Source: an uncultured Tolumonas sp. (GTDB lineage Bacteria > Pseudomonadota > Gammaproteobacteria > Enterobacterales > Aeromonadaceae). Taken from it: a stretch of DNA of 64,000 nt. Positions 14,254-49,484 of this stretch are shown here, in pieces. Every line of letters begins with the position of its first letter. Position 1 is the first letter of the stretch. Under the pieces are notes generated by a model. That model was given only the letters and a program-made list of their open reading frames with translations, made no database searches and was not told the DNA's origin. Location of the stretch: contig NZ_OY829944.1 of the NCBI RefSeq assembly GCF_963556105.2, forward strand, positions 502,501-566,500, given 5' to 3'. The translations under genes were made by a program, and so were the position numbers.

Positions 14254-14283
14254 ATGATCCTGCTGATCGATAACTATCATTGA
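14254..14283 (+). pseudogene. pabA: Truncated 5' end of pabA left by island insertion
   Basis: The reading frame ATG-ATC-CTG-CTG-ATC-GAT-AAC-TAT-CAT-TGA encodes MILLIDNYH and stops. The first eight residues match the start of PabA/TrpG proteins and the intact pabA at 48903 ([11 protein letters not shown]). The sequence after TAT is island DNA. It keeps a good Shine-Dalgarno. Confidence 0.85.
14264..14277 (+). repeat. Left attachment core (attL)
   Basis: TGATCGATAACTAT, identical to 48916-48929. It encodes codons for L-I-D-N-Y of PabA. Imperfect matching extends upstream to the ATG (20 of 24 positions when aligned with ATGTTGCTTT at the right junction). Confidence 0.85.
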
Positions 14284-14388
14284 GATCCAATCCAATCAGA
14301 ATAAATATTGTTAATAGACTAACTTCATAATAAACAATCAATTGTATGTCTTATTCCATCCAGTTGCATGCATTGTAACCTGATTTTA

Positions 14389-14431
14389 TTGAGGGTATCA
14401 TTGAGGGTATCGAAACAGGGGTACCCTCAAT
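14389..14431. repeat. Arm-type repeat cluster at the left end
   Basis: Two tandem 12-bp units, TTGAGGGTATCA (14389-14400) and TTGAGGGTATCG (14401-14412), are followed by an inverted copy GGTACCCTCAAT (14420-14431) that abuts the integrase ATG. A matching pair occurs at 48832-48855. The position suggests integrase arm-binding sites and autoregulation of int. Confidence 0.7.
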
Positions 14432-14432
14432 C

Positions 14433-15650
14433 ATGCCATTATCAGACGCTAAAATTAGAAACACAAAACCTGGGGAAAAACCACAAAAGCTAACTGATAG
14501 TGGGGGGTTGTACCTTGAGGTTCGACCTTCAGGCGCAAAGCTTTGGCGTTACCGTTACCGGATTGCGGGTAAAGAGAACATATTTTCTATTGGTAAGTAT
14601 CCTGATATTGGGCTGTCTGAGGCTCGTGAACAACACCGTAAGGCTAGAAGCTTGGTTGTGCAAGGCACACATCCGGCTCATCATCGGCAAGCTGAACGAC
14701 TAGTTGCTTTTGCTGAAAATGAAAATACGTTTGAAGCTGTTGCTCGTGAATGGATTGCAAAGAAAGGAATAAATTGGAGTCCTTATTACAGAAGTCAGAT
14801 TGAAAACTTTCTTACGGCAGATATGTTTCCTGATTTGGGTAAACGTCCCATTCGTAGTGTAACGGCGGCTCATTTACTTAAAATTCTTCATCGTGTAGAA
14901 GATCGAGGCGCTAGTTCCGTGGCTTTGTTATTACGGCAGTGGTCTTCCGCAATTTTTAGATATGCTGTTGCGACTCTTCGAGCAGATAGTGATCCTGCCG
15001 CTGCATTAATTGGTGCAATTCATCGTCCAAAGGTTAAACATCACAAACCGCTATCTCGGCAAGATATTGCGGACTTAGCAAAGGCTATAGATGAGTTTGG
15101 CGGGTATCGAACGACGGTTATTGCAATACATTTAATGTTATTAACTTTTGTGCGAACAGGTGAACTCCGTAAAGCTGAATGGTCAGAATTCGATCTAGAA
15201 CGGGCTGAATGGGTAATCCCTGAGGGAAGAATGAAGATGGATGAACTACACATTGTTCCTTTATCCCGCCAAGCAGTCGAACTTATCCAAGAGTTACGAA
15301 GTTACACTGGTGGTAGAGTTCAGTTATTCCCTAATTACCGCAATCCTCAAGTGTGCATGTGTTCAACGACGATTAATAGGGCTCTTGAACGAATGGGGTT
15401 TAATGGCAAAAATAGTATTGGATTTTCAGCTCATGGGTTTCGTGCAACAGCTTCGACTTTCCTGAATGAGTTAGGCTATCGAGCTGATGTAATTGAACGT
15501 CAGTTAGCGCATGCTGAGCGTAACAAGGTTCGTGCTAGCTATAACCAAGCAGAATACATGGATGAACGTAGAAAAATGATGCAGGATTGGGCTGATATGA
15601 TTGATACAATGATGAAAAAATCAAAATCGAATATAACAGGGCCAAATTAA
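14433..15650 (+). CDS. int: P4-type tyrosine recombinase (island integrase)
   Basis: The 405-aa integrase has the N-terminal DUF4102 arm-binding domain (LSDAKIRNTKPGEKPQKLTD, GLYLEVRPSGAKLWRYRYR), a SAM-like core domain (about 98 to 180) and a C-terminal catalytic domain. The catalytic residues are visible: Arg241 (FVRTGELRKAEW), His334 and Arg337 (SAHGFRATA), His360 (QLAHAERN) and Tyr370 (VRASYNQ). It should catalyse integration at the pabA core and, with AlpA or another directionality factor, excision. The ATG lies two bases from the inverted arm repeat, so the integrase may repress itself. Confidence 0.95.
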   Translation: MPLSDAKIRNTKPGEKPQKLTDSGGLYLEVRPSGAKLWRYRYRIAGKENIFSIGKYPDIGLSEAREQHRKARSLVVQGTHPAHHRQAERLVAFAENENTFEAVAREWIAKKGINWSPYYRSQIENFLTADMFPDLGKRPIRSVTAAHLLKILHRVEDRGASSVALLLRQWSSAIFRYAVATLRADSDPAAALIGAIHRPKVKHHKPLSRQDIADLAKAIDEFGGYRTTVIAIHLMLLTFVRTGELRKAEWSEFDLERAEWVIPEGRMKMDELHIVPLSRQAVELIQELRSYTGGRVQLFPNYRNPQVCMCSTTINRALERMGFNGKNSIGFSAHGFRATASTFLNELGYRADVIERQLAHAERNKVRASYNQAEYMDERRKMMQDWADMIDTMMKKSKSNITGPN

Positions 15651-15677
15651 TTATATTCTACAAAACATGTAATAAAT

Positions 15678-15740
15678 GACACAAAAGACACAAAAGACAC
15701 AAAAGACACAAAAGACACAAAAGACACAAAAGACACAAAA
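15678..15740 (+). repeat. 9-bp minisatellite, seven perfect copies
   Basis: GACACAAAA is repeated seven times without a mismatch immediately after the integrase gene. The last copy merges into the stem of the hairpin that follows. Such arrays change length by slippage. Confidence 0.95.
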
Positions 15741-15776
15741 GACAGTGCCAGCACTCCCATGCTGGCACTGTCTTTT
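15737..15776. terminator. Strong hairpin terminator after int
   Basis: AAAAGACAGTGCCAGCA, loop CTCCCA, TGCTGGCACTGTCTTTT: a perfect 17-bp stem with a T-run on the plus strand and A-run on the other. It works for both int and minus-strand transcripts. Confidence 0.9.
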
Positions 15777-15981
15777 TATTTACAGTCAATAATCCCTTTG
15801 CTCTTTAACTCAAAGAAAAACTGAGCAATGCCGGTCTTTGTTAATTAATCCATTAGCCCTTATTTTGCGGGGCTTCTGACATTAAAGAAGATACATAAAT
15901 GTAATCATCAATTCTGTGCTTATTCGTTAGAAGTATTCTTATACAGACAGATATTTGGTTGTTATTAGATATATATTGAAG

Positions 15982-16332
15982 TTAATTTGCTTTGGCAAAA
16001 CGATCTGCTAATCGTTCAATGGTATCCATCAGCAATACTCTATCACTAGTTTCTAGTCTAGATAGAATATTAGCCAAAACAATAGCTTGGTCACTAGGGC
16101 GACAACTAGTTTCCTGCAGAAGGTCAACTAGTTCACAGTGAAACAGTTGTGCCAGTTGTACTAACCGTATCACGGTGGGAACAACTAATCCCCGCTCCAT
16201 GCGAGATACTGCTTCACTACCGATATTTAAGTGTTCAGCTACGTATTCCTGCGTCATACCTGATCTAATCCGTTGTCGGGCAATAGCCCGACCCACAGAC
16301 TGACCAAGTTCAATCATATTGATGTCTGTCAT
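15982..16332 (-). CDS. XRE-family helix-turn-helix repressor
   Basis: The 116-aa regulator has an HTH (about residues 12 to 66) with RIRSGMTQEYVAEHLNIGSE and AVSRMERGLVVPTVIRLVQL, the Cro/CI pattern. A C-terminal helical tail (about 70 to 116) with SRLETSDRVLLMDTIERLAD probably mediates dimerisation. I start at the ATG at 16332, which has GAGGA upstream; an upstream GTG/ATG-like extension would add 24 residues that overlap operator-like palindromes. It probably controls island genes, including itself. Confidence 0.85.
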   Translation of the reverse strand: MTDINMIELGQSVGRAIARQRIRSGMTQEYVAEHLNIGSEAVSRMERGLVVPTVIRLVQLAQLFHCELVDLLQETSCRPSDQAIVLANILSRLETSDRVLLMDTIERLADRFAKAN

Positions 16333-16392
16333 AAGTCCTCCAGTCAACTTAAATAATTGATTGGCAACCTGTTGACATGAAGGACTCAATAA

Positions 16393-16416
16393 GTTGATTA
16401 TCAACCTAATAGGTTG
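16393..16416. promoter_or_regulatory. Overlapping palindromes upstream of the XRE gene
   Basis: GTTGATTATCAAC (16393-16405) and CAACCTAATAGGTTG (16402-16416) are perfect palindromes sharing CAAC. They lie about 60 to 85 bp before the XRE start. Operators for the repressor are a reasonable inference. Confidence 0.5.
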
Positions 16417-17472: not shown

Positions 17473-17643
17473 TAACGCATTGAATAGCAAGTTGACTAAG
17501 TCGGGGAGGGTGACCTCCTTGACCCATGGTCAAAAAGTAAAAATGAGATAAGAGCATCAGCTTTATAAATTAAATTAGGTATTTTAAATGTATAGATTTG
17601 AGCACATGCTCTGGGATCAATTATGTGTATTAGTCGCGACTTG

Positions 17644-18810
17644 ATCTGACACTTCTGTTTGAAAAGAAGAGAGTTACCGGTTTTGATATGGGTGTCGAAT
17701 CCTTAATCAAAACAACCTAGAGGTAACTCTCATGATCCATAGTAACAATCCCGTTATTAAACACAAAGCAGGTCTTCTCAATTTGGCAGAAGAGCTGAAT
17801 AACGTTTCCCGTGCCTGTAAAGTCATGGGCGTATCCAGAGACACCTTCTATCGCTATAAAGAACTGGTCGAAGAAGGTGGTATCGATGCTTTGCTTGATA
17901 AATCTCGACGCGCTCCCAACTTAAAAAATCGCACTGACGATACGACAGAACAAGCTGTCATCAATTATGCCATTGAGTATCCGGCACATGGACAACAGCG
18001 AACCAGTAATGAACTTCGTAAACAGGGCATCTTCATCTCGGGAAGTGGTGTGCGTTCAGTCTGGCTACGTCATGATTTAGAGAACTTTAAAAAACGACTT
18101 AAGGCGCTGGAACACAAGGTGGCTCAAGACGGTATATTGCTGTCTGACGCTCAAATTGCAGCGCTGGAACGCAAGCAGCAGGATGATGAAGTCTGTGGCG
18201 AAATTGAAACGATGCATCCAGGTTATCTGGGCTCACAGGACACGTTTTATGTTGGCAATCTAAAAGGTGTCGGAAGAATTTATCAACAAACGTTCGTCGA
18301 TACCTATTCCAAAGTTGCTTATTGCAAACTGTATACAACAAAAACGCCCATTACAGCCGCCGACTTGCTGAATGATCGCGTATTACCGTTTTTTGCAGCT
18401 CAGAATATTCCGATGCTGCGAATATTGACCGACCGAGGCACGGAATATTGCGGGAAAGTTGAGCAGCACGATTACCAGTTATATCTGGCCATTAACGATA
18501 TCGATCATACAAAAACAAAAGCAATGTCCCCGCAGACGAACGGCATTTGCGAACGATTCCATAAGACAATCCTTCAGGAGTTTTACCAAGTCACATTCAG
18601 GAAAAAGCTGTACAGCGATTTAGATAGTCTTCAGTCAGATCTGGACATCTGGTTGAGCTATTACAATAATCAGCGAACCCATCAAGGAAAAATGTGCTGT
18701 GGCCGAACACCAATGGAAACGTTTATTGATGGTAAAAAAGTCTGGGAAGAAAAGAATTTGAACCAGATTTAATCTGACAGACACCCATTAAAAATCGGTA
18801 ACTGTCAGAT
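17644..18810 (+). mobile_element. IS481-family insertion sequence
   Basis: The element is bounded by inverted ends ATCTGACA and TGTCAGAT and flanked by direct CTTG repeats (17640-17643 and 18811-18814), taken as a 4-bp target duplication. Inside each end the sequence GTTACCG(A/G)TTTT ... ATGGGTGTC is shared. The left end has about 21 extra bases (CTTCTGTTTGAAAAG...) between the terminal 8 bp and that shared block, so the ends are not symmetrical. Confidence 0.75.
17732..18772 (+). CDS. IS481-family transposase
   Basis: The 346-aa transposase has an N-terminal HTH (NNVSRACKVMGVSRDTFYRY) and a second winged helix (RTSNELRKQGIFISGSGVRS). The rve integrase core follows, with candidate catalytic Asp190 (TFVDTYSK), Asp234 (LTDRGTEYC) and Glu274 (NGICERFHK); the D-E spacing of 40 fits a DDE enzyme. 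The ending NNQRTHQGKMCCGRTPMETF is typical of the family. The frame is intact, so the IS is probably active. A GAGGTAACTC stretch precedes the ATG. Confidence 0.93.
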   Translation: MIHSNNPVIKHKAGLLNLAEELNNVSRACKVMGVSRDTFYRYKELVEEGGIDALLDKSRRAPNLKNRTDDTTEQAVINYAIEYPAHGQQRTSNELRKQGIFISGSGVRSVWLRHDLENFKKRLKALEHKVAQDGILLSDAQIAALERKQQDDEVCGEIETMHPGYLGSQDTFYVGNLKGVGRIYQQTFVDTYSKVAYCKLYTTKTPITAADLLNDRVLPFFAAQNIPMLRILTDRGTEYCGKVEQHDYQLYLAINDIDHTKTKAMSPQTNGICERFHKTILQEFYQVTFRKKLYSDLDSLQSDLDIWLSYYNNQRTHQGKMCCGRTPMETFIDGKKVWEEKNLNQI

Positions 18811-18953
18811 CTTGTCTGAACTAGTACAATTTAGCTTTCTGTAAAACGAGCTTTGTGCATAAGTTGTTCTCCTTTGAACAATGCGGAGATCTTTAAAAGT
18901 AACTGCTTCTATTATGTCAGGACTTGCATCCGCATCTATTTGAAATAATTAAA

Positions 18954-20132
18954 CTATTCCTCATCACTTCTCACTTGATTCCTTCCACTATTTTTAGCGA
19001 GATATAAGGCACTGTCTGCTCGACTAATTATCTGTGCCAGTTTCCAGCTATTTTTATTAGCAGTAGCAACACCCATACTGACAGTGATATGAAATGGTGC
19101 TTGTTTTACATCCGAGGTGAAATCACATTGAGCAATTCTATTCCGGAGTTTCTCTGCCCAATTAACCGCATCTTGTAATTTACAATCAGGTAAAATAATC
19201 ACGAATTCTTCACCACCATATCGAGCAACAATATCACAATACCGCGCTTGCCCCTTTATTTCTCTCGCAAGTGTCTGTAATACCTTATCACCCACAGGGT
19301 GACCGTATGAGTCATTTATTTTTTTGAAATGGTCTATATCGAGAATAATTAAACTCCAAATTTTAGAGGATATATGAGCAGTTAATTCCAGCGTCTCACT
19401 TAATTCGATAAGTGCATATCGATTATAAATACCGGTAAGGGCATCATAAGTCGCATGCACATAAAGACGGTTTTGCAACCATTGCGATGAGATCATTAAT
19501 ATACTAATGCCAATAAGCAATAATGTGAAACTTGCACCAAGCATGATTGTGATATTGCTTATGTTTGTGTCAAAGAGCCTGATTGGAAAGTTAAGAAAGG
19601 TTGTGCTAATCATTCGATAGCTCATCAATACGATCGTTATAATAAAAGAGAACGCACACAACAATCGTCCTGTTTCATTTGCTTTTCGGCCTTTTAATGA
19701 TTCGTACAATATTCGCCAAGCAATGATAATGATAACTAAAGAAATGATTGAAGTTCTTAAAGGGAAATATATATCACCGGCTTGTTGTGTTAGCGCGAAC
19801 AGGGTGGTAAAGAATGGGGGGATCACCCAAAATATCCGTCGATCTTTGACAGAATAAACCTTGGTATATTGCCTAATACCTAACCACATCCAGCAATAAC
19901 CGCACACGATGAAACTATTTCCGAAACAAACACTAGCCCATAAAGGTATGTACATTCGTAAAAATAAAGCCATGAGACCGAGCGTCCAGGCAGCAAAACT
20001 GGCACTCCAATATCGCATGCCTGGGCAGGTAATTTTATCGAGAGAGCTAAAACATAATAAAAGAGAGAAACAAAAACTAATCATGATATTCATGATAATA
20101 ATCGTCTTTACATCGAGGATCAGTTCGTTCAT
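18954..20132 (-). CDS. Membrane-bound diguanylate cyclase (GGEEF)
   Basis: This 392-aa protein has about seven hydrophobic segments in residues 10 to 225, forming an integral membrane sensor region without an obvious named domain. A C-terminal GGDEF domain (about 230 to 385) follows: DALTGIYNRYAL, LDIDHFKKINDSYGHPVGDK, the active-site YGGEEF and AQIISRADSALYLAKNSGRN. The inhibitory RxxD (RYCD) lies five residues before GGEEF, so product inhibition should be intact. It should make c-di-GMP in response to a membrane signal. A CRP-like site lies upstream at 20299. It is the first of several c-di-GMP genes in the island. Confidence 0.92.
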   Translation of the reverse strand: MNELILDVKTIIIMNIMISFCFSLLLCFSSLDKITCPGMRYWSASFAAWTLGLMALFLRMYIPLWASVCFGNSFIVCGYCWMWLGIRQYTKVYSVKDRRIFWVIPPFFTTLFALTQQAGDIYFPLRTSIISLVIIIIAWRILYESLKGRKANETGRLLCAFSFIITIVLMSYRMISTTFLNFPIRLFDTNISNITIMLGASFTLLLIGISILMISSQWLQNRLYVHATYDALTGIYNRYALIELSETLELTAHISSKIWSLIILDIDHFKKINDSYGHPVGDKVLQTLAREIKGQARYCDIVARYGGEEFVIILPDCKLQDAVNWAEKLRNRIAQCDFTSDVKQAPFHITVSMGVATANKNSWKLAQIISRADSALYLAKNSGRNQVRSDEE

Positions 20133-20298
20133 TACTCATGACGCCTTTTCATGCTTATTCAAACCATAGTCACTTTCGCCTATTTATTAATCAATTCTAA
20201 TCATTAGAACAATATCGCTGTATTTAGTGCGATAAAACTCCTGCAGTACTATTGTTTGGTAAGATATAATTGTAATATCAGTTTGGTGTCGCTTTAGA

Positions 20299-20314
20299 TG
20301 TGGCATAAGTCACA
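20299..20314. promoter_or_regulatory. Possible cAMP-CRP site upstream of the cyclase gene
   Basis: TGTGGCATAAGTCACA matches TGTGA-N6-TCACA at nine of ten positions. It lies 167 bp upstream of the start of the membrane cyclase gene on the minus strand. Confidence 0.5.
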
Positions 20315-20387
20315 TTTCAAATTTTTCTTAATAAATACAACCTCAAAATCTCGTCACCCTGATGAGGGTGATAGCCTAGACATTCCG

Positions 20388-21416
20388 TTAAAGCTGTTTG
20401 TTGACGATCCTTTTTGCTTCTTTTTCTTTATACATTCGTCGATCGGCTACTTCTATCAATTCTTCAATATTCTTTCCATCAACATCAAATATGGAATAGC
20501 CAATACTGACATGTAGGGGAATATTATTTTTTTCAAAGATAAATGCATGGTTTAGCGATGTCGTTATCCGCTGATAAAGTGTTTTCGCATCTTCTATACC
20601 ATGAATTTTATTCAGAATAATGCCAAATTCATCGCCACCCAATCGAGATAGTGTGTCATATTCACGTATCGATGTGTTGACTCTTAAGGCTACTTCTTTG
20701 ATTGCCGCATCACCAGCGCGATGGCCTAAATGATCATTGATCTGTTTTAAGCTATCCATATCAAAAATCACGATACCAAATATCTCTCCCGAGCGTTGCG
20801 ATTCTAATATGATCCGTCTTAATCGATCAAAAAATAAAGCTCTATTGGAAACACCAGTAAGTTGGTCTGTCGTGGCTTTAATATAAAGCTCATTAACACC
20901 ATATTCTGTTGCTGTATGCATGGAGGCTGCTATTAAATCAGACAGTAATTTGACAATTTCAATATCTTTATGAGCAAACGCATTGGGGCGTTTATATAAA
21001 ATTTTAAGAACCCCGATGTTTTCATCTCTAAATTTTAATGGATTCACAATCATGGAACGTAAACCGACTGCGTTACAAGCCTCACGATTTACACGTTCAT
21101 CCTGTTCCGAATCATAACAAACCAGTGTTTTTCCCACTTCAACAACATAGCCTGACAGGCTATTCGCCATTGGTAATCGGAGTCCGAGTTGATTTTCTGC
21201 TAATCCACTGACGGCTCGATAAACCATTTCACCGGCTTCTGATAATTCAATGACAGCGCCATCTGCGTGAGTCAGTCTTTGTGTTTCGCGGGTTACCATT
21301 TGCATGATTGACGCAAGATCCAGCCCTTGTTGCACCACGTTTGTTTGCAGAGCAATGATCTCAAGCAGTTGACCTTTGGTAACGTTACACCGGGTATTAA
21401 CATGTTCCATATGCAA
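20388..21416 (-). CDS. GAF-GGDEF diguanylate cyclase
   Basis: The 342-aa soluble protein has a GAF domain at about residues 20 to 165 (TQRLTHADGAVIELSEAGEM, RSMIVNPLKFRDENIGVLKI). A GGDEF domain follows at about 180 to 340 (DQLTGVSNRALFFDRLRRII, FDMDSLKQINDHLGHRAGD, LGGDEFGIIL). RxxD (REYD) stands five residues before GGDEF, so the inhibitory site is present. The GAF may bind a small ligand or a cyclic nucleotide. It is divergent from the chemoreceptor gene at 21690, with a 273-bp shared upstream region. Confidence 0.93.
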   Translation of the reverse strand: MHMEHVNTRCNVTKGQLLEIIALQTNVVQQGLDLASIMQMVTRETQRLTHADGAVIELSEAGEMVYRAVSGLAENQLGLRLPMANSLSGYVVEVGKTLVCYDSEQDERVNREACNAVGLRSMIVNPLKFRDENIGVLKILYKRPNAFAHKDIEIVKLLSDLIAASMHTATEYGVNELYIKATTDQLTGVSNRALFFDRLRRIILESQRSGEIFGIVIFDMDSLKQINDHLGHRAGDAAIKEVALRVNTSIREYDTLSRLGGDEFGIILNKIHGIEDAKTLYQRITTSLNHAFIFEKNNIPLHVSIGYSIFDVDGKNIEELIEVADRRMYKEKEAKRIVNKQL

Positions 21417-21689
21417 CCTTTAGGTGAGCGCAGATTATGGATAGAACCATAAATTGTGTGCATATTTTAATAGTAGTCAAAAACACCACCACTTCCGAAA
21501 ATTTAAAAGAACAACGGTTAACCCAAAACTGTATAAAAATTAAACACCAGCAACCGTAAATTGTTCGATTTTAATACGTTTCTTTGTTGAATTTGGGGGT
21601 GACTCTAGAAACCGGAAGTATATCAAAGTAATAGCACATGATGAGACTCTAATATATCGGCGATGGATCGCCATTAAAGGGAGATAACA
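21417..21689. other. Divergent intergenic region between cyclase and chemoreceptor genes
   Basis: These 273 bp carry the start regions of both genes. Only a Shine-Dalgarno (AAAGGGAG at about 21676) before the chemoreceptor is clear. No operator or promoter was identified with confidence. Confidence 0.4.
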
Positions 21690-23666
21690 ATGCAGAATAA
21701 TCAACCCGTTACTCAAAAAGAAATAAAACTCAACGCGGATATGCGCATTGTGTCGATGACTGACTTACAAGGTGATATTACGTTTGTTAACCGTGATTTT
21801 CTTGAGATCAGTGGATTTACTGAGGATGAATTGGTCGGGAAACATCACAACATGATCCGACATCCGGACATGCCATCTGCCGCGTTTGCGGACTTATGGC
21901 AGACGGTCAAATCAGGTCAAGTCTGGCGTGGAATAGTAAAGAACCGGTGTAAGAACGGCGACCACTATTGGGTTGACGCAACGGTCATGCCGATTGTTCA
22001 AAACGGCACTACGGTTGGGTATCAGTCTGTTCGTAATCAGCCAACACAAGAACAAATACAACAAGCCGAATCGCTTTACACTAAGTTGCGGCAAAATACC
22101 TCATTAAACATTCCCAAACCTCATGGCTGGCAAACTTGGTCGTTAAATAAAAAAGCATGGCTGCTTGGTGGTACAACATTACTGACATCGATCGTTTTGT
22201 TAATACAAGAACTGACTGATCGGTTTGCCCATCCTGAAACGGCAGATAGTTTGATCTATACCTTTTTACATCTGCTTAATTTCTTAGGATGTTTTGCATT
22301 TTTTATCTTTTTAAACCGCTGTGTCATTCGCCCACTTCGGCAGGCCACTCGAAATCTGGTTAACATGGCAAATGGTGATTTGACCGAATCGTTGCCTAAT
22401 CATACGCATGATGAAATTGGGCAGATGCGACTGTCGATCCGAATGTTGCAATCCCGCTTGCTGGCCATTTTTGGGCGGTTTGGCGAGTCCTGTCTGACCT
22501 TGACCAGTTCGGCGGGTCAGCTCGCGAGAACCAGTGATAGTACCTTGCAGTCCATGGATAACCAGCACAATGAAACCACGCAGGTTGCCACGGCGATGCA
22601 GGAAATGCATGCCACGGTACAGGAAGTAGCGCATAACACGGAATTTGCGGCCGCAGAGGCCAAAACAGCGTTAATGGCCACGAATAGTGGTCAGGACATT
22701 GTGTTGCAAGCCAGAAATTCCATCGAAAAACTGGTTCAGGAAGTAGAAACAACGGGCGAAGTAGTTACCAATGTCGCCACTCATAGTCAGCAAATTACCA
22801 AGATCACCGATGTGATCAGTGGTATTGCGGATCAAACCAACTTGTTAGCATTGAATGCGGCTATCGAGGCGGCACGAGCCGGTGAACAAGGTCGCGGGTT
22901 TGCGGTGGTTGCCGATGAAGTTCGTAGCCTTGCCAAAAGAACACAGCAAGCAACGAACGAAATCAGAACAATGATTGATCAATTGCACAGTGAAATTGAT
23001 CAGACAGTGACAGCAATGCAATCCAGTCGCGCGAGTGCGGATGATGCTGTTTCTGGCATAGATCAAACTACAACGGCATTAGTGGCCATCATGGAGTCAG
23101 TCAACAGACTGAATGACATGAATAACCAGATAGCAACTGCCGCAGAGGAACAATCAGCCGTCACGCAGGAAATGAGCCAGAATGTTGAAAATATTAGTGC
23201 GTTGGCTTATCGGGCAAAAGAAGATGCAAGTCTCATAGACCAACATAGCCGCCATCTAGCAACGCTCTCTGCACATCTGCAAACGGCGTCGAATCAGTTT
23301 AAGTTGAGCAACGCCAATTTGGATTTTACGGCGGCACGCAATGCACATCTGGATTGGGTCAAGAAATTAGAGCGTTATCTGGCCGGGGATAAGAATGCGA
23401 TCAATGTAAACACATTGTCCGACCATCGCTCTTGCTTACTGGGACATTGGTACTACGGCGTGGGTACTCAAAAGTACGGTTCGTTACCGGATATGAAAGA
23501 TCTCGAAGTGCCCCATGCTGAGTTACACAAAAAAGTAGGATTAGCCGTGAAATGGTACGATCAAGGCAATATGCAAGAAGCCAATAAACTGCTGAATGAT
23601 GTAAGACGGCTATCTGGGGTTGTGGTGAGCAAGCTTGAGTTGTTAAAACAACAAACTATAGGGTAG
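21690..23666 (+). CDS. PAS-containing methyl-accepting chemotaxis protein with CZB domain
   Basis: The 658-aa receptor has an Aer-like N-terminal PAS (about 15 to 125): [20 protein letters not shown] and [17 protein letters not shown]. Two close membrane helices follow (about 155 to 215), then HAMP (about 215 to 268). The methyl-accepting region ends in the hairpin tip [20 protein letters not shown]. At the C-terminus (about 548 to 650) is a CZB zinc-binding domain: [37 protein letters not shown]. The PAS may sense redox or energy state. CZB domains bind zinc and respond to hypochlorous acid or zinc, so this receptor could combine two inputs. It lacks a periplasmic domain. Confidence 0.92.
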
Positions 23667-37163: not shown

Positions 37164-37165
37164 GT

Positions 37166-40864: not shown

Positions 40865-41521
40865 TTATTGATGAGCTAAGTGGTATTGAGATGACCCGAA
40901 ATGACAAACATTAGACCAGTGAGTTGGTTCGTTCCGTTGGAGCATTGAGCAAACTCTATCAAACGCGCATTGTAATTGGCCAATGAAATTTTCTCTTTTA
41001 CTACTCAGCTTATAACGCTTTGAAAAGAAAACATATTCATAAGACTCTTTAGCCGATAGTCGTATAACGCTTGCCCAAGCGCGAATGATCATGGCAGATA
41101 GATCTGTTCCCTCGTAGTCACTTACTTTGTGATATTCATCTTTGTTGACCATGATAAATAAATCGTAATAAATATTTCCTGCCGCATTCCGATTTGTTCT
41201 CCAGAAATAGAAAACATCCGAACCATGTGTTCGACGCCGTTGTTCTCGTTTTATCCGCTGATCAGTTGCTAGTTCGTCTTTAAATTCATATATAAACTGA
41301 ATTAATAACTTTTCTTGAATCTGAAACGAGTTTTTTTTCCTGGTGTGAATATGTTCTTGCGGCACCGTCAATCTGCAACGAATAGCTAATACTCTTGGAT
41401 GAGCACTTAAAGCATCAAAAAAAACATCTTTGATACAACGTATATCCGAAGAGCCATAATCGCTTGGATTGATGGGGGATAGACTATCGATCAGAGCTTG
41501 TAAGTCATGGGTGTACGTCAT
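40865..41521 (-). CDS. Degenerate YagK/YfjJ-type (inovirus Gp2-like) protein
   Basis: The 218-aa protein shares the pattern of the Rep-like protein at 45545: VLAIRCRLTVPQ, a charged helix with KIREQRRR-like IKREQRRRTHG, then GNIYYDLFIMVNKDEYH. In that family the last part is normally HYHxxxxxNG, the HUH metal-binding site. Here it reads YYDLFIMVNK, so the His pair is lost, and a nicking role is unlikely. I infer a paralogue that kept the fold. It is followed in the operon by the methyltransferase. Residues 185 to 218 have no counterpart. Confidence 0.6.
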   Translation of the reverse strand: MTYTHDLQALIDSLSPINPSDYGSSDIRCIKDVFFDALSAHPRVLAIRCRLTVPQEHIHTRKKNSFQIQEKLLIQFIYEFKDELATDQRIKREQRRRTHGSDVFYFWRTNRNAAGNIYYDLFIMVNKDEYHKVSDYEGTDLSAMIIRAWASVIRLSAKESYEYVFFSKRYKLSSKRENFIGQLQCAFDRVCSMLQRNEPTHWSNVCHFGSSQYHLAHQ

Positions 41522-41637
41522 TTTAATTACCTCATGTTGTTTATGTCATAGATAATGAGAGGCATGTAATGAAATACTGGTTTGTTTAAAACGAATAACA
41601 ACACTAAAAAAAGAGTCCGCACCAGTTTTTTAGAGAA

Positions 41638-41675
41638 CTAAAGGGGCAATCAACGCTATCGCCTGATTGACCCTT
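41638..41675. terminator. Hairpin between the small protein and YfjJ-like operons
   Basis: AAAGGGGCAATCA and TGATTGACCCTTT pair over 12 positions with one mismatch and flank an 11-nt loop. It is a plausible terminator for the minus-strand module. Confidence 0.55.
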
Positions 41676-41738
41676 TAGTTTATTTATGTTTAAAAAAGCT
41701 AAATTGGGTACCGATTGCTATCATCAATATCTGTTGAT

Positions 41739-41879
41739 CTACTTGTCGGTTGGTTTCCCTTCTTGCTGCTCCCGCAATATATCGTTCTCCAGCTTCAGCT
41801 CATGATATTGACAGTAAAAATCATACCCTTGTTTCACAACAGCCAAGAAACCAATCGTGGCCAGAATGTTCTTCAACAT
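41739..41879 (-). CDS. Small protein of the island replication module
   Basis: The 46-aa protein starts MLKNILATIGFLAVVKQGYD and ends in a charged coiled coil (EDLKLENDILREQQEGKP-like). AGGGAG stands eight bases before the ATG. A short N-terminal hydrophobic helix plus a coiled coil is typical of small island or phage accessory proteins. It lies on the same strand as the upstream LRAT, RDF-like, YqaJ and DUF932 genes, at their distal end. Confidence 0.65.
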   Translation of the reverse strand: MLKNILATIGFLAVVKQGYDFYCQYHELKLENDILREQQEGKPTDK

Positions 41880-41998
41880 ATTTCTCTCCCTAAAATCGTT
41901 GGTTGTAAGAATGTCTACGCCAGTACCAGGTCTTTCGTCTCTATTTATGTCCGTGATAGTTCAGTGTATTGCGAATATCGGTGTGAAACGGATGGTCT

Positions 41999-42451
41999 CT
42001 ATTTCAGATAGCGGATCAGTTTTCCTATGCCTAGATAGGAAATGAGTTTGTTGGCTTTAGGCTCGGTGAATTTATCCCATGCCTTATTCACCAGACTTTC
42101 AACGATGATCCATGATACTGGCTGTAACACCTCTGTTTTCCAATTGATTGCTTTTTCCTGCACAACGGGAGCGCCTTTGATACACCACGCAACCAATTGT
42201 TCATCGGTATCGAATCGCGTCGGGTTAGCTGATTGCAACAGATCAAAGGCCCGTTGCAGACTGGCTTCGCGGGCATAAGGTCGGAATGGGTAGGGGCGAA
42301 TAAAATAGTGTTGATGCTGGCAAAACTCTTCCAAATTAGAAATCACGGCGTAGTGGTAATGATTTAAATGAATAACGTTTCCTTCTCCGGCGTATAAGCC
42401 GTGATGAGTGTGTCCTGAATAGGTGGTAATGAGGTGATCGGCGATATGCAT
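41999..42451 (-). CDS. LRAT-fold protein lacking the catalytic cysteine
   Basis: The 150-aa protein has the LRAT/NlpC-P60 core: HTHHGLYAGEGNVIHL (His box, about 14 to 29) and RFDTDEQLVAWCIKG (about 80 to 94). In active family members the second reads NCEHFATWC, where Cys is the nucleophile. Here the aligned position is Asp (TDEQLVAWC), although the WC and following KG are kept. So either the enzyme has lost activity or it uses another residue. Partner or substrate unknown. AGGAG precedes the ATG. It is downstream of the RDF-like gene by 54 bp. Confidence 0.75.
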   Translation of the reverse strand: MHIADHLITTYSGHTHHGLYAGEGNVIHLNHYHYAVISNLEEFCQHQHYFIRPYPFRPYAREASLQRAFDLLQSANPTRFDTDEQLVAWCIKGAPVVQEKAINWKTEVLQPVSWIIVESLVNKAWDKFTEPKANKLISYLGIGKLIRYLK

Positions 42452-42505
42452 CTTCGTTCTCCTGATTAAGAAATAAAGTCTCCGGTGGGCTGCAGGTCTA
42501 TTGGA

Positions 42506-43450
42506 TTAATTAGTCCGGCTACCCAGTTTCTCGGTGAGTTTGGTCGGGCGAGAGGCCGTTCGTTTCTGTACGACAACGTTATCGGTTACTGGCGAGACTG
42601 TTTGTGGCAAAGGTTGTTCTGTCGGTGTCACAGCGTGAGGTTCCACCGGATAGAACTCTTCCATGACCAGCGGTATTTCTTCCTCCGAATCTTCAAACTG
42701 CCCGTTTTGTAGTAACCATCGCGCGGTCTGCTCCAGTTCATCCATTACCATGCCAGCGTCACTATCTGACTCGGCAGCCTCTTTCGCCTGGGCAATAACG
42801 GTAGCGAGTTCAGCGCCCTCGCGGAGGGTCAAGTCAACATAGTAGACAGGTGTTTGATAGGAGAGCGTGGTGGTCTTAGCACGAAGCCGTAACATCAGCG
42901 GTAGATAGCGGGTAACCCCGCCACTGATGGCCTGAAAATACTGCAGACGGGCGGCCAGTGTCCGCACCGAGTTATACCCGGTGGTGCGGAAGATAAAACT
43001 CCCCAACTCATCACATTGCCCCTCTACCTGCACATTTAATCGACCATAGAGCTTGCAGCCATGTTGTCGGGCAAATGGGCAAAACTGTGGTCCCGCACAA
43101 GCCTGTTCTTCCATTCCACCCTGTTCACTAACACGTCTGGCTCGCTCACCATCACCAACGCACAACGGTCTGCCTGTATTGCGGTCAAACGCGCTGTATT
43201 CAGCCCGCAAATTCAAATCCGTGTCGTTGAACAACATCCGTACCGGAATAGCGCGGATTTTGTTATTTGAAGCGGCTTCTGCCAACTTCTGATGCAGTGG
43301 ATGTAACAGCCAGTCACCTTTGGTTTTCACCTGCGTAGTTAACGTAAAGCTGTCGTCTTTCTCGGGTAGCCATTTATCATTTTTACACACCAAACGGCCA
43401 ATCGAGATCCGTCCGATGATAGGCGGCGTTATTGCCAGTCCTTTGATCAT
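42506..43450 (-). CDS. RDF-like zinc-binding island protein
   Basis: The 314-aa protein begins MIKGLAITPPIIGRISIGRL and contains RAIPVRMLFNDTDLNLRAEY (about 66 to 85). It has four conserved cysteines, Cys97, Cys118, Cys124 and Cys132 (C..CPFARQHGCKLYGRL), a likely zinc site. The pattern resembles proteins from proteobacterial islands named hydrolase or metal-binding protein, related to phage recombination directionality factors. The C-terminus (about 245 to 314) is a charged, Pro/Thr-rich tail. It overlaps the yqaJ stop codon by four bases and shares its operon. The RDF role is an inference. Confidence 0.65.
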   Translation of the reverse strand: MIKGLAITPPIIGRISIGRLVCKNDKWLPEKDDSFTLTTQVKTKGDWLLHPLHQKLAEAASNNKIRAIPVRMLFNDTDLNLRAEYSAFDRNTGRPLCVGDGERARRVSEQGGMEEQACAGPQFCPFARQHGCKLYGRLNVQVEGQCDELGSFIFRTTGYNSVRTLAARLQYFQAISGGVTRYLPLMLRLRAKTTTLSYQTPVYYVDLTLREGAELATVIAQAKEAAESDSDAGMVMDELEQTARWLLQNGQFEDSEEEIPLVMEEFYPVEPHAVTPTEQPLPQTVSPVTDNVVVQKRTASRPTKLTEKLGSRTN

Positions 43451-44427
43451 GATGAACTCCTTGCGGGTTGAATGATGAAACGACGGGCACCAGGAACAGC
43501 TTTCGCGTATTGCTGCAGTAGCTCTGGATGCTCCAGTGAGAGTCGGTCAAGATCAGGAACTAGCCGGTCTTTCGCTTTGCGCCAAGTGACCTTACCCTGC
43601 TGAAAGATAGCGGCGGTGGCTGACCCCAAGGCAGCCTGAATACGGTGTTTCAGTGTCGACTCCTGTTCCTCAATCTCTTCTTTGCGGTGTCGGAGGATCA
43701 GTAACTCCGCAAACAGATCATTGAAAGGACCTGATTCTGAGAAATCCAGTGTTTGGCCATTATCTGTCGGAAAGAGCGATAACAGTGCTTGTTGCGCATC
43801 GTAAGAACCATCTGGATCAGGTTGCTGATTATTTGTCACCCATGACCAAAACTGTGCTTCACGCTGAATGAGATCGGCGATCTTATCGTCATCGCGTTCG
43901 ATCCGATAAATGCGAAACTCCTGTCCGGCAATTAATACCGCGACATCTGCCCAAGCATGGCCCGTTACTGCTAACTGGTGAAGAACCTGACATTGATACG
44001 CTACTGGCACACCGTCATCCCATAGCTGGGCACTGTAGAAACCCGCCGTCTTGATTTCCAATACACCGGTACCATGTTCGGTGATCACCTCCCGATCCAG
44101 ATTAGCCAACATAAACGGATGCTCGGGATGCTGGAGCACCGCATTGACCCTCCGTACTTTGCGACCGGTGCGCTCGGCATACATTTTGGCCAAAACTGGC
44201 TCCATGACGGTGCCCCACACCACGGCTTCTTTCTCAGATAAATCTTCCGGTAATTGCCGTCCTGTTTTTTCCAGCCAAAGCGAGAGGGAGCATTTGTACG
44301 ACGACAAGCCAATCGCTGCCGCCGCATCGGATGAACCAATGCCGGTTGAACGGATCTGTAACCATTCCTCACGGGATAACTGCGTGGTAGAGGCTAAACG
44401 GATCGCTTGGTTATAACGTGTTTTCAT
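43447..44427 (-). CDS. YqaJ-family recombinase/exonuclease
   Basis: The 326-aa protein carries the lambda-exonuclease-like core: STGIGSSDAAAAIGLSSYKC (about 26 to 45), VVWGTVMEPVLAKMYAER, LANLDREVI and VLEIKTAGF, with Asp/Glu/Lys metal-binding residues in LANLD and EIKT. The family performs 5'-3' DNA resection for phage-type recombination, usually with a single-strand annealing protein. It starts at ATG after AGGAG. Confidence 0.9.
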   Translation of the reverse strand: MKTRYNQAIRLASTTQLSREEWLQIRSTGIGSSDAAAAIGLSSYKCSLSLWLEKTGRQLPEDLSEKEAVVWGTVMEPVLAKMYAERTGRKVRRVNAVLQHPEHPFMLANLDREVITEHGTGVLEIKTAGFYSAQLWDDGVPVAYQCQVLHQLAVTGHAWADVAVLIAGQEFRIYRIERDDDKIADLIQREAQFWSWVTNNQQPDPDGSYDAQQALLSLFPTDNGQTLDFSESGPFNDLFAELLILRHRKEEIEEQESTLKHRIQAALGSATAAIFQQGKVTWRKAKDRLVPDLDRLSLEHPELLQQYAKAVPGARRFIIQPARSSS

Positions 44428-44447
44428 TCGTCATCTCCTGAACGAAC

Positions 44448-44482
44448 AAAGCCCCTGACCGGCAGAACCAGTCAGGGGCTTT
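44448..44482. terminator. Terminator between DUF932 and yqaJ genes
   Basis: AAAGCCCCTGAC and GTCAGGGGCTTT form a perfect 12-bp stem around 11 bases. It may reduce read-through from DUF932 into the yqaJ gene. Confidence 0.85.
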
Positions 44483-44512
44483 AGATAGGGATTAAAAGGG
44501 GGAAATGTCTAT

Positions 44513-45466
44513 TTAGTGCAGTAAGGTTAACGCGTGTGTTAATGCCTTTTGTTTCAGTTGCGCACCCTGACCAAACCACGCTGAATCGAGGCGGTTATCC
44601 TGAGTTCGAGCCCGACGATGGTGATCCACATATTCGGTCATTGCATTGACCAAACCCCATGCTGTTCCTGATGCTGCCAGCAGCTCTGAGCCCATCCCTG
44701 CGCCATTGTAGAGCGCGCCAAGCCGTTGTATTACCTTGGCGCTTGAAGATCCACTGGCGATCGATACAGGCTCTTCCAGCACGGTTCTGAAGTAGTTTTC
44801 TGCCTCATCCAGAGAGACAGTTCGCTGACTGAGTTGTTTCAGATCACGCATGAACAATTCCCAAGATGAAAAGCCAAGACCTAATGCTTCCTTGACTTGT
44901 TTTGGGTCAAACTTTGTCGAGTGAGGGACTTTAACTGCACCGGTACTTTGTTTAGTCGCCATCTGTAGCGTGTTATTACAAACCACCCGTACTGACGTAA
45001 ATTGTGCGGTGGTACATAACGTGCCATCACAACTGGTTGCCAGTAACAGATAAGCTTTGATACGGTCATTTCCCTTTAGCTTCGCTTCCTGACCGGTTTT
45101 GGCTAATGCCCAGAGTTTCTTACCGCCTTTTAACACACCGGCTGTTTCCAACTCAAAGCCACCTGCTGAGACCAAATCTTTATAGAAATGTAAAACCTCA
45201 TGCGGTTGTACGACTTTGTAGCGATTAGAAACAACAGAAAGTGGTGATAATGAATCAGAACGAAACAAGACTTTGGAATCAGTGAATGGACGAATGTGTA
45301 ATGCGCTGCTATTGACATTAAACAGCACATCACTTTGTTCTATTGTCCAGTCCATACCGGCTTCAATCAGCCATTTTTCAATTGGTTGCTGCGGTGAAAG
45401 GTGTTGGCCTAATCCATGCCACGGGGTAGCGCCTGTATAGGCCATTGACTCTACTAAATGAGACAT
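44513..45466 (-). CDS. DUF932 plasmid/phage-type protein
   Basis: The 317-aa protein has the DUF932 landmarks: TPWHGLGQHLS (about 14 to 24), LSVVSNRYKVVQPHEVLHFY, FTSVRVVCNNTLQMA and later AWGLVNAMTEYVDHHRRART. DUF932 proteins occur next to phage/plasmid recombination genes; some authors link them to DNA annealing, which fits the yqaJ neighbour. Start ATG after AAAGGAG. Confidence 0.88.
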   Translation of the reverse strand: MSHLVESMAYTGATPWHGLGQHLSPQQPIEKWLIEAGMDWTIEQSDVLFNVNSSALHIRPFTDSKVLFRSDSLSPLSVVSNRYKVVQPHEVLHFYKDLVSAGGFELETAGVLKGGKKLWALAKTGQEAKLKGNDRIKAYLLLATSCDGTLCTTAQFTSVRVVCNNTLQMATKQSTGAVKVPHSTKFDPKQVKEALGLGFSSWELFMRDLKQLSQRTVSLDEAENYFRTVLEEPVSIASGSSSAKVIQRLGALYNGAGMGSELLAASGTAWGLVNAMTEYVDHHRRARTQDNRLDSAWFGQGAQLKQKALTHALTLLH

Positions 45467-45544
45467 TGTTTTCTCCTTTAAACAGAATGGTCTACAGACA
45501 GACCAGAAGTGTATTCAAGGAGATGATATATATCTGAAATGAGA

Positions 45545-46513
45545 TTAAATCAGGGGGATCCGCAGTCTGGGACGTCCGGCTGCAGAGGCTCGCTTAGGTA
45601 ATGTCATTTTGCCAAAGATCCGAGCTTTGCCATTCAACTGAACCGCAATGATACTTTCATCCACTTTGGTCAGATAAGACGCATGAGTCAATGCCGCGCG
45701 TTTATTCGTATCGTCATAGTTTATCTGCCCAAGGTAGCATTCATCATATTTAGATTTATCAGCATTACAGTTGTAATAGGTTCCTGCTCCCTCAGTCACC
45801 TTTAACCACAACTCTCCCAATTGTTGCCCTAACGTAATATCCTGCCGAACTTTCGCACCGTTAAAGAAAAAAACCATATGATAGTGATAGGCTCTATCTT
45901 TGCCATACTCCAATTTCCAACACATCCCAACCAAATAGCGGTATTCACGCTTTATCTGTCTTATAAATACATCACGATCTTGGGTTGCCTGTTCTATCGA
46001 TAAATTATCATATTCCGACTTAAGATAATGAAAATCGACCCTAACAACTAATAATCGGCTATGAAACTCAAATAAATCGTTTACGTATCGTTGCAAGCTG
46101 ACTGTATTACGGGTAGTCATTCTAGATAGATTCGCCAACTGTTTTCGGAATTGCTTTGAGTTAGCAATGGTTCTGAACATTTCTAATGTTCTATTTAAAT
46201 CATAAATAAATAGCTGACTTGGTGAGTGTCGTAATTCACCGTTTGCAATCAATCCAGTTAGTAAGCTGTTTGACAACACGGTAGCCAATAAATTAATTGT
46301 TGGATGATTAGCATCTGATATAGCATTATCTTCAATTAAGCATGATATCTGCTCCAGAACATCAAACAACCTATACCGACCAGTGTGTGATATTAGTATG
46401 GAGTAATTCCTCGTAGAGGTTATATAAGGATAGGTTGAGTTTTCTAATATGGTGGGTAAATCTAATGCTTCTATAAGCGCAGTGTTTGTATCCACGTTCA
46501 ACTCCAATAGCAT
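45545..46513 (-). CDS. YfjJ/inovirus Gp2-type replication initiator
   Basis: The 322-aa protein has the YagK/YfjJ C-terminal region: LLVVRVDFHYLKSEYD (about 153 to 168), QIKREYRYLVGMCWKLEYGK and then HYHMVFFFNGAKVRQD, the HUH-like His pair. After this come LGELWLKVTEGAGTYYNCNA and DDTNKRAALTHASYLTKVDE. This is a probable rolling-circle-type initiator. It lies upstream of the DUF932-yqaJ operon and downstream of alpA, as in P4-like or inovirus-like islands. The N-terminal 100 residues are not recognised. Confidence 0.82.
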   Translation of the reverse strand: MLLELNVDTNTALIEALDLPTILENSTYPYITSTRNYSILISHTGRYRLFDVLEQISCLIEDNAISDANHPTINLLATVLSNSLLTGLIANGELRHSPSQLFIYDLNRTLEMFRTIANSKQFRKQLANLSRMTTRNTVSLQRYVNDLFEFHSRLLVVRVDFHYLKSEYDNLSIEQATQDRDVFIRQIKREYRYLVGMCWKLEYGKDRAYHYHMVFFFNGAKVRQDITLGQQLGELWLKVTEGAGTYYNCNADKSKYDECYLGQINYDDTNKRAALTHASYLTKVDESIIAVQLNGKARIFGKMTLPKRASAAGRPRLRIPLI

Positions 46514-47344: not shown

Positions 47345-48208
47345 ATGGTTGGTAATTCTGTTAATTATAAAAATAAAAGTTTGTTAGCACCAAATGAACG
47401 TAAAATCCTTCATCATTATTTTTATTTATATAATCTATTTAATAGGATTGTGGATTTTGATTTGTTAAATAATTTATCTTTAGTAAAGAATGAATTGGAT
47501 GAAATAATAGAAGAAATTCTAAAGTCCCCTAGAAAAAAGCTCATATTTGCAAATGATTTTTCAAGGTGGAATATAGATGCTCGTCGAATGATTAATAATC
47601 GAAGGGTGATATTTGGTTTTTTGGATGATAAATTTAGTAATAGTTGTTTGTCGTATGATGAAATAGAATGGGTTTTTAATTTAAGCGATAGTTGTTGCAG
47701 TTATGTATGGGTTAAAATGATGCAAATCACTGAGCCAGAATTTGACTCTGCACCAGATGGAAGCCCTCTTTCTTGTATACGAATTCCGGTATATAAAAGA
47801 CTAAAACTTAGGCCATTCATTGGGGCGGGTAGTCAAAAAAAATTAGAAATTATAAAGCTTATTGATTTTTGGGATGAGAGTTTATGCAATAAAATTAATT
47901 ACATGAATCAGTTGGAAATAGATTGCGCTAGATTTAATATTTCATTAGAGATAAGAGGGTGGATAAAAAACAACAAGCAAATGATTGAATGGGCGAGTGA
48001 ATATGTTTTAAATAATTATTGTGACTCAACCCACCCTGATTGGCTATTTTCCCTTGATGGAGAAACTGAACAAATTAATTTTCTACTTATATTTTTTGGG
48101 TTGCAATCGACAGAGGATGAAAAAGAAATGATGGGCAAATTAAAAAAAGTGGTGCCCAGCAAAAATACAGGATTTCATCCAATAGAAAAAACAATAGCTA
48201 CTCAATAA
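47345..48208 (+). CDS. AT-rich orphan gene, unknown function
   Basis: The 287-aa frame is strongly AT-rich, with many AAA, AAT and TTT codons, unlike its neighbours, pointing to recent acquisition. No domain recognised; parts such as RKLIFANDFSRWNIDARRMI and KRLKLRPFIGAGSQKKLEII are charged and helical. I start at the ATG at 47345 with GGTGG upstream; a longer frame adds 38 hydrophobic residues without support. After the stop, another frame encodes GKAINKKLEKIAGAHGLSPE and a helical tail to 48309, which could be the true C-terminus if the A6 run at 48184 to 48190 hides a frameshift. Confidence 0.55.
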   Translation: MVGNSVNYKNKSLLAPNERKILHHYFYLYNLFNRIVDFDLLNNLSLVKNELDEIIEEILKSPRKKLIFANDFSRWNIDARRMINNRRVIFGFLDDKFSNSCLSYDEIEWVFNLSDSCCSYVWVKMMQITEPEFDSAPDGSPLSCIRIPVYKRLKLRPFIGAGSQKKLEIIKLIDFWDESLCNKINYMNQLEIDCARFNISLEIRGWIKNNKQMIEWASEYVLNNYCDSTHPDWLFSLDGETEQINFLLIFFGLQSTEDEKEMMGKLKKVVPSKNTGFHPIEKTIATQ

Positions 48209-48831
48209 AGGGAAAAGCAATTAATAAGAAATTGGAGAAAATAGCAGGTGCACATGGATTGTCACCAGAGAAGTTTTTAGAAAATTTAATAACCAAAATT
48301 GATTGTTAATATTTTCAATTTAAAATGTATAAAGATTTTGTTTTGCGTGTTCACATTATGCAATGTAAATAATCAATCTCTTCTTTTTAGGTGGATATGA
48401 AATTTATTTTTCTGAAAACTTACTAGCAATAAGATAAGTGGTTAATAGAGTAAAACGTTGTTTAGGAATAAGTTATTAATATTATCATCTTGCTATGAGT
48501 GTTGATTAGTAAATGATTCAGCATTTAATGCAGTAAATTTTATACAAATGTAATAATGCATTGCCTAACTAATATCGGCTAAATTATGAGATGTTATTAA
48601 TAATAGGTTTATTCTAAAAAGCAGCAATTAAAGAGGGGAAAGGATTATCTAGCTCTTATATCTTAATAGAAAATAGAGGTCATACAAGTGATGGTCTATA
48701 ATGTAATTAAGGATAATAAGCACATGGTTTTTTGTTACAATGTTCAGATTATTATTGATTAATGTGTCAGACTCGGTTATCTCAAGTACCATCATTCCTG
48801 ATCAGTACACAAGTGTAAGTATCCAGAAAAT
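48209..48831. other. AT-rich non-coding right end of the island
   Basis: No gene supported. From 48211 to 48309 the alternative frame described in the preceding entry runs to a TAA. Beyond it there are only short AT-rich runs, no hairpin with a U-tract and no promoter that can be named. Confidence 0.45.
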
Positions 48832-48855
48832 ATGAGGGTATCAATGAGGGTATTT
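48832..48855. repeat. Arm-type repeat pair at the right end
   Basis: ATGAGGGTATCA (48832-48843) and ATGAGGGTATTT (48844-48855) are tandem 12-bp units matching the left-end cluster at 14389. The 21-bp block TGAGGGTATCAATGAGGGTAT differs from the left copy at one position. Confidence 0.7.
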
Positions 48856-48869
48856 TTTTATTTTATTTT

Positions 48870-48887
48870 ATTTTATTTAAATAAAAT
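48870..48887. repeat. Perfect AT palindrome near attR
   Basis: ATTTTATTTAAATAAAAT is an 18-bp palindrome preceded by several TTTTA repeats. It lies 16 bp before the restored pabA start. Confidence 0.7.
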
Positions 48888-48902
48888 CAATAACTTGGTT
48901 CT

Positions 48903-49484
48903 ATGATGTTGCTTTTGATCGATAACTATGACTCTTTTACCTACAATCTGGTGCAATATTTTGGGCAACTGGGCGCACAAGTTGAAGTACGCCGCAATGA
49001 TGCGATCACACTGGCAGATATCGCCGCATTTTCACCGTCACATCTGGTGATTTCTCCGGGGCCATGTACACCCAATGAAGCGGGAATTTCATTAGATGCC
49101 ATTCGTACCTTTGCGGGCAGAGTGCCGATCCTTGGGGTGTGTTTGGGGCATCAGGCGATTGCGCAGGCCTTTGGTGGCAAAGTGATCCGCGCGCGGCAGG
49201 TGATGCATGGCAAGACCAGTGTGATTGGGCATGATGGGCGCGGTGTTTTTCATGCATTGAATAATCCACTGACTGTTACACGTTACCACTCTTTGCTGGT
49301 GGAAGAAGCCACCTTACCGGCTGAGTTTGAAATTTCAGCCTGGACGCTGCCGACGGATGGTTCATCCAGAGAGATCATGGGCCTTCGCCACCGCACGCTA
49401 CCACTGGAAGGGGTTCAGTTTCACCCGGAAAGTATTCTCAGCGAGCAGGGGCTTGAATTATTAGCTAATTTCTTACGGCAATAA
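48903..49484 (+). CDS. pabA: Aminodeoxychorismate synthase, glutamine amidotransferase subunit
   Basis: The 193-aa class I glutamine amidotransferase has the Cys nucleophile in [10 protein letters not shown], the oxyanion-loop region and the His-Glu pair in [10 protein letters not shown]. The start [20 protein letters not shown] is the PabA/TrpG family start. pabA-argD-crp order supports PabA (folate pathway) over TrpG. The first four codons and all upstream DNA are island-derived: the native leader and its Shine-Dalgarno stayed at 14161-14256. No good Shine-Dalgarno precedes the restored ATG (GGTTCT-ATG), so expression may be lower or use another signal. Confidence 0.93.
48916..48929 (+). 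repeat. Right attachment core (attR)
   Basis: TGATCGATAACTAT, identical to attL at 14264. It encodes L-I-D-N-Y of the restored PabA. Confidence 0.85.

Follow-up and report, generated by a model that had tools for sequence, protein, structure and literature searches.

In the 64,000-nucleotide stretch of DNA from an uncultured Tolumonas sp. analyzed here (contig NZ_OY829944.1, positions 502,501 to 566,500; hereafter the window), an integrative element of 34,652 bp is flanked by two copies of the start of pabA. We consider it very probable that this element is a genomic island that was inserted at a recurrently used target and repaired the pabA start. In the proposed pathway, a tyrosine integrase would recombine the attP site of the island with the start of pabA. 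The attP site would hold an imitation of the gene start (an ATG and about four codons), the native start would be left stranded at attL, and a chimeric, full-length pabA would be rebuilt at attR. Across many proteobacteria, integrases of the same clade use the start of pabA or that of the homologous gene trpG; the near invariance of the first codons (M-L-L-L/M-I-D-N-Y-D) is the presumed reason.

At the left junction an ATG at position 14254, preceded by GTGGAGTAACA, opens the short reading frame ATG-ATC-CTG-CTG-ATC-GAT-AAC-TAT-CAT-TGA (MILLIDNYH and a stop). At the right junction the pabA reading frame is open from 48906 to 49484, with an extra in-frame ATG at 48903. The sequence TGATCGATAACTAT is present exactly at 14264–14277 and 48916–48929, and the window holds no third copy. 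An initial annotation of this DNA had described a partial start on the left, an intact pabA on the right and a 14-bp sequence common to both, and the coordinates and frames agree. A 14-bp repeat alone is weak evidence of insertion: on its + strand the window has 45 different 14-mers that occur more than once. Three things make the repeat convincing: its copies stand in frame at the same pabA codons, the start of an integrase gene lies 179 bp away from the left ATG, and the empty site exists in a relative.

The empty site was found in locus L003 (genome G010, same genus). The flanks of the island joined at the repeat align with it at 93.8% identity without gaps over positions 154–1549 (1,396 bp), with the junction at 878, and its start reads GTGGAGTAACA-ATG-ATC-CTG-CTG-ATC-GAT-AAC-TAT-GAC, exactly as the initial annotation had forecast. 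Locus L006 (G003) has the same start, and the joined flanks align with it at 91.7% identity with 34 gap positions, which lie upstream of the start in the printed stretch. The comparison with the relative places the insertion, as had been claimed, at the 5′ end of pabA, within its first codons. The island supplies in frame the start codon and about four codons that differ from the native ones; read from 48906, the rebuilt pabA has Leu instead of Ile at codon 2. The proposal that the island carries a substitute start is thus upheld. Two starts could also have arisen by local duplication or assembly error, and the abundance of recurring 14-mers speaks in favor of such an origin. The gapless empty site leads us to reject it, and the integrase beside the junction and the island-type right ends in relatives and other taxa described below also contradict it; its probability is negligible.

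The crossover probably took place inside TGATCGA (14264–14270), as bounded with the attL/attR pair of G033, if that pair represents one element. This bound holds only where each attL/attR pair belongs to one element, a point against it, since the left flanks of L033, L035 and L084 resemble the right end of another island and tandems at pabA therefore occur. Further insertion sites inside the island were considered and rejected: only two positions match the core pattern exactly, and with up to three mismatches there were 9 matches vs. 6.6 expected by chance. In 2-kb windows the G+C content is 0.30–0.50 within the island, 0.41–0.51 to its left and 0.47–0.53 to its right; base composition alone is only a modest sign of an island. 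The features are as follows.

13669–14160, + strand: ychJ (YchJ middle domain, SEC-C), the host gene left of the island (Pfam)
14254–14283, + strand: attL, with what remains of the native pabA start (nine codons followed by a stop) (sequence; native Shine-Dalgarno −5.9 kcal/mol)
14264–14277, + strand: left core repeat TGATCGATAACTAT (exact repeat search)
14390–14429, unstranded: arm-type repeats TGAGGGTATC on the int side, a direct pair spaced by 12 bp and an inverted copy with one mismatch (repeat search)
14433–15650, + strand: tyrosine integrase of 405 amino acids with arm-binding, central and catalytic domains (Pfam, PHROGs, tree)
15982–16404, − strand: helix-turn-helix repressor-like regulator (Pfam, PHROGs)
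17732–18772, + strand: transposase with rve core, an insertion sequence within the island (Pfam)
18954–32454, unstranded: signaling cargo, comprising five GGDEF proteins, one of which also has EAL, plus two methyl-accepting chemotaxis proteins (Pfam)
33145–38032, unstranded: more cargo, a GntR-aminotransferase regulator, GNAT, an ABM domain, AzlC/AzlD and LysR (Pfam)
40865–46513, − strand: mobile-element module, two YfjJ-like proteins, Gp3-like, YqaJ exonuclease and DUF932 (Pfam, PHROGs, comparison with G009)
48833–48854, + strand: right-end arm-type repeats, 12 bp apart (repeat search)
48885–48897, + strand: AATCAATAACTTG, a perfect match to the integration host factor (IHF) consensus WATCAANNNNTTR, at −21 to −9 of the pabA ATG at 48906 (motif scan)
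48906–48922, + strand: island-supplied start codon and first codons, ending with TGATCGA (sequence comparison)
48916–48929, + strand: right core repeat TGATCGATAACTAT, attR (exact repeat search)
48906–49484, + strand: rebuilt pabA (open frame, homology)

The same site is occupied in other genomes. By eye, 6 of the 29 pabA starts of relatives (L003–L031) have an island-type right end (L004, L005, L025, L026, L030, with a single arm repeat, and L031). In G009, another species of the genus, an island lies at the same pabA codons on one contig, and its int is 87% identical. A remnant of the pabA or trpG start was found 177–182 bp upstream of int for all 19 close integrases with a readable flank (window included; 62–100% identity). 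Integrases 69–77% identical to that of the window came from metagenome-assembled genomes of Acidithiobacillus, Uliginosibacterium, a gammaproteobacterium and a member of the Hydrogenophilaceae, and from four Rhodanobacter, Pseudoxanthomonas spadix, Azoarcus (no flank) and Oceanisphaera; betaproteobacteria are among the hosts of close integrases.

A TrpE C-terminal motif is found upstream of int, from about 0.3 kb to more than 1 kb before it, at 6 of 13 genome loci (L072–L084) and at 3 of the 8 viral loci examined. At these loci the target is trpG, some distance after trpE. In a set of 12 genomes with TrpG the right end is visible in nine; the other three (L181, L183 and L185) are on contigs that begin 39, 87 and 157 bases before trpG. 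By eye, L183 and L185 continue the attL flanks of L079 and L082, as if the same assembly contained the empty site. Two observations in the literature concern the same gene. In Xanthomonas arboricola, the DNA between ltaE and trpG is variable: an hrp cluster is reported there, replaced in a second strain by a restriction system (PMC4686621), and in Pseudomonas aeruginosa the deletion of a predicted prophage region removed trpG, which may be a host gene at the border and not phage cargo (PMC12456005).

A tree of 143 integrases was built by a quick method and has several long branches. L270, L272 and L275 (the same records as L154, L166 and L169), the truncated L081 and the partial L038, L039 and L285 were left out. 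The window integrase belongs to a group of 19 (support of 96 in the Shimodaira–Hasegawa-like approximate likelihood ratio test, SH-aLRT), all with a start remnant and none with a tRNA in the 500 bases before int. This group is part of a group of 74 (SH-aLRT 100) holding every trpG or pabA row except L286 (24% identity, on a trpG contig). In the whole tree a start remnant lies 177–188 bp upstream of int in 26 of 143 rows, window included, and 17 further rows were assigned by a trpG on the same contig, most of them without a readable flank. The group of 74 also holds 23 rows with other targets, 8 with unknown targets and one tRNA call (L173). Outside it, a tRNA lies close to int in 52 of the 69 rows. 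Three members of the wider integrase group, L083 (56% identity), L086 and L170, have no start remnant, a point against the proposed reading. Twenty of the 23 other-target rows form one subgroup. In all 12 flanks examined there (L129, L103, L046, L106, L114, L126, L131, L111, L089, L093, L090 and L099) the sequence ends in a stop after ...FNV, i.e., the target is the 3′ end of a protein-coding gene, which we take to be ychF.

Phages also use the pabA/trpG-start site. Relatives of the island integrase are encoded in 22 viral contigs. The best 80 of 124 viral TrpG loci were fetched and 50 of these 80 were searched for an integrase; 17 of the 50 trpG records gave a match, to a more distant relative of the island integrase, and in 16 of them it was at the record end opposite trpG. 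Two viral records were compared in part with PHROGs: L191, which has both an integrase and trpG, and L302, which has an integrase but gave no match to trpG. Two of the four proteins of each were tail proteins. L302, which shares its record with L168 and is among the 46 loci that carry the core pattern, has a right end that directly abuts the int side. This is either an attP-like junction, which would support excision only in a relative, or a tandem of two elements.

To describe the right end, 16 genome right ends and six more flanks were aligned (22 rows; L036t proved to be plain flank). Most right ends have the same order from left to right: arm-type repeats spaced by 12 bp come first and, after some 30 bp, a AAATCAANNNNTTR-like block that stops 8 bp short of the ATG; the start codon and then the core follow. 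The repeat word is GGGTATC in close relatives and differs in phages. The block was compared with the IHF consensus WATCAANNNNTTR (PMC7581858). A match with at most one mismatch lies exactly at −21 in 12 of the 16 genome right ends and in 16 of the 22 aligned rows, vs. a mean of 1.5 rows and a maximum of 6 in 500 shuffles. Among 42 non-redundant viral trpG starts, the −21 match was present in 28 of 37 with repeats by the loose rule of the script and in 3 of 5 without; a hand count restricted to repeats spaced by 12 bp gave 24 of 32. None of the 23 native pabA starts of relatives has it. The right end looks like an attP arm with a putative IHF site before the new ATG. The initial annotation had missed this, as well as the repeated use of the site and the fact that the target is a start common to pabA and trpG. 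In attP sites of the lambda type, the IHF site lies between the core and the arm repeats.

The DNA upstream of the new ATG would then be an attP arm in which an IHF-type site lies about 30 bp beyond the 12-bp-spaced repeats and reaches to 8 bp from the ATG. This stretch would have two jobs because the ribosome-binding site must lie there too, and we find it fairly probable that it serves both as IHF site and as ribosome site. Several observations count against this assignment. The right ends share descent, and the shuffle control overstates their independence. Among the 32 viral starts of the hand count, eight fail at −21, and the 12-bp repeat rule also fires, with unrelated words, on 4 of the 23 native starts. 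The last 45 bases of L178, L179, L182 and L184 lack any match, even with one mismatch allowed. Of 14 listed junctions, 11 match the −21 motif without mismatch, ten of these lacking arm repeats. Viral trpG leaders with a perfect motif and no arm repeats (L290, L297, L298, L310, L313, L317, L319, L320, L322 and L325) are perhaps old right-end relics, perhaps native; they look native to us, presumably Pseudomonas leaders.

The motif may therefore be an inherited leader or ribosome-binding site and not an IHF site. In that alternative, the −21 to −9 motif would be a conserved ribosome-binding region from an ancestral trpG leader with no role in IHF binding. All ten leaders have a perfect copy at this position, in most cases AATCAAAAGGTTG, and the free bases of the motif often spell a Shine-Dalgarno sequence. 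A Shine-Dalgarno sequence, however, leaves the WATCAA half unexplained; in the window, L004 and L005 it is weak (−2.2) while WATCAA...TTR is perfect, and the motif sits between the core and the arm repeats. We regard this alternative as possible, though on the unlikely side.

The dual role of the stretch bears on the translation of pabA. Pairing with the 16S tail was −5.9 kcal/mol for the native start and −2.2 kcal/mol for the island start, in keeping with the earlier statement that the restored start lacks a clear Shine-Dalgarno sequence. The values were −2.2 in L004 and L005 and −2.9 to −5.4 kcal/mol in the other 13 genome right ends. The four free bases of the IHF motif are GAGG, TAGG or AAGG in many phage right ends and TAAC in the window. 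In many relatives these bases form a Shine-Dalgarno word of the GAGG/TAGG type, which is lost in this island, where the recombination duty would have been kept. Since the free bases of the window motif lack such a sequence, translation of pabA is probably weaker than at the empty site. The 19 host open reading frame (ORF) starts of the window (as in the mechanical ORF list) have a median of −3.2 kcal/mol. The same median was obtained for the 23 native pabA starts of relatives, a point against a cost to the host: the −2.2 of the island need not be harmful.

The initial annotation had gone further and stated that the island now controls folate synthesis. The results give no support for this: positions 48200–48930 (731 bases, both strands) hold 3 promoter-like sites vs. 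5.7 in shuffles, and the genome has a second glutamine amidotransferase gene, 46% identical to the pabA product, that might share the work. A TGNNARAAT element is found 107–136 bp before the ATG in 10 of the 16 genome right ends, in nine cases preceded at a distance of 17 nt by a hexamer that begins with TT, a promoter-like arrangement (raw counts, with no shuffle background); the window, L004, L005, L025, L176 and L182 have none. A stronger version of the overlap, in which the attP arm would be a switch, with the Shine-Dalgarno inside the IHF site bases and the state of the element (integrated or free, with or without a bound complex of IHF and integrase) setting pabA or trpG expression, seems quite improbable to us. 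If true, in hosts with trpE-trpG the switch would split the trp operon and give trpG and the downstream genes to the element, and repeated use by the clade would explain the hotspot at the trpE-trpG boundary, tailocin clusters included.

The P4-type domain set of the integrase is complete (Arm-DNA-bind_3, Phage_int_M and Phage_integrase in Pfam). The genes at 42506–45466 (Gp3-like, YqaJ and DUF932) are 95–97% identical to those of the island of G009. The large GGDEF protein had no match at E ≤ 1e-100 in 7 of the 11 genomes of the genus; relatives 64–65% identical are located away from pabA in G009 and G002. A Pfam scan of 26 chosen ORFs of the island detected no relaxase or type IV secretion genes and no capsid or tail genes. 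An integrative and conjugative element (ICE) and a prophage were rejected as classes for this island on the absence of conjugation and structural genes from these ORFs. Ten of the 26 were compared with PHROGs and fell into families of integration, regulation, recombination or unknown function, or had no match. PADLOC, run on nine island proteins, gave weak matches only, to the two chemotaxis proteins. By eye, the transposase gene with the rve core appears as an insertion within the island (17640–18820) with apparent inverted ends TCTGACA/TGTCAGA. Also by eye, int is followed at 15677–15779 by a run of 9-base repeats (acacaaaag) and then a hairpin with a T run, which looks like a terminator preceded by a repeat array. 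The same genome encodes a second integrase, 44% identical (G000:C2:739695-740858).

The island might be a dead relic, an old insertion with an inactive integrase. No excised form of it was seen, a transposase has been inserted, and much of its cargo is of a chromosomal type. On the other hand, the integrase gene is open with all three domains, the arm repeats and both core copies are intact, and in G009 the backbone is shared although the cargo differs in part. We infer an active integrase and consider the relic unlikely.

Gene-restoring insertions at 5′ ends have been described before. Islands and prophages at the 5′ end of dusA (IMEVchUSA3 and others) supply a new N-terminus, IMEVchUSA3 also a promoter, and reduced expression was measured (PMC4482086, PMC8409611). 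Like the window island, they combine a tyrosine integrase, the 5′ end of a housekeeping gene and N-terminal codons supplied by the element. They differ in the target gene and in altering the first 35 residues, vs. about four codons here, and the available parts of these descriptions hold no overlap of IHF and ribosome sites, which is putative in the window island. ICEs of the SXT/R391 family bring a new promoter and N-terminus to the 5′ end of prfC (cited in PMC8409611); the insertion is similar, but these elements are conjugative, unlike the window island as judged from the 26 scanned ORFs. The integrase of phage P4 is 40% identical to that of the window, with the same family and domain order; P4-type integrases act at tRNA genes, whereas the window island is at a protein-coding start. 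The R/F-pyocin cluster of Pseudomonas aeruginosa lies between trpE and trpG (PMC11577772, PMC10598620, PMC5467263), the same gene boundary as the trpG-targeting islands. As for a tie between this cluster and the integrase clade, no integrase match was found in five trpG contigs without arm repeats (L192, L194, L202, L206 and L207; pyocin genes there were unscored). No report of pabA or trpG as an integrase target was found in the literature searched by title and abstract opening, mostly open-access.

The finding marks the start of pabA/trpG, common to folate and tryptophan synthesis, as the place where islands and phages of a broad group dock. The cost of docking at a start codon would be that the DNA of the att site must double as a translation signal.

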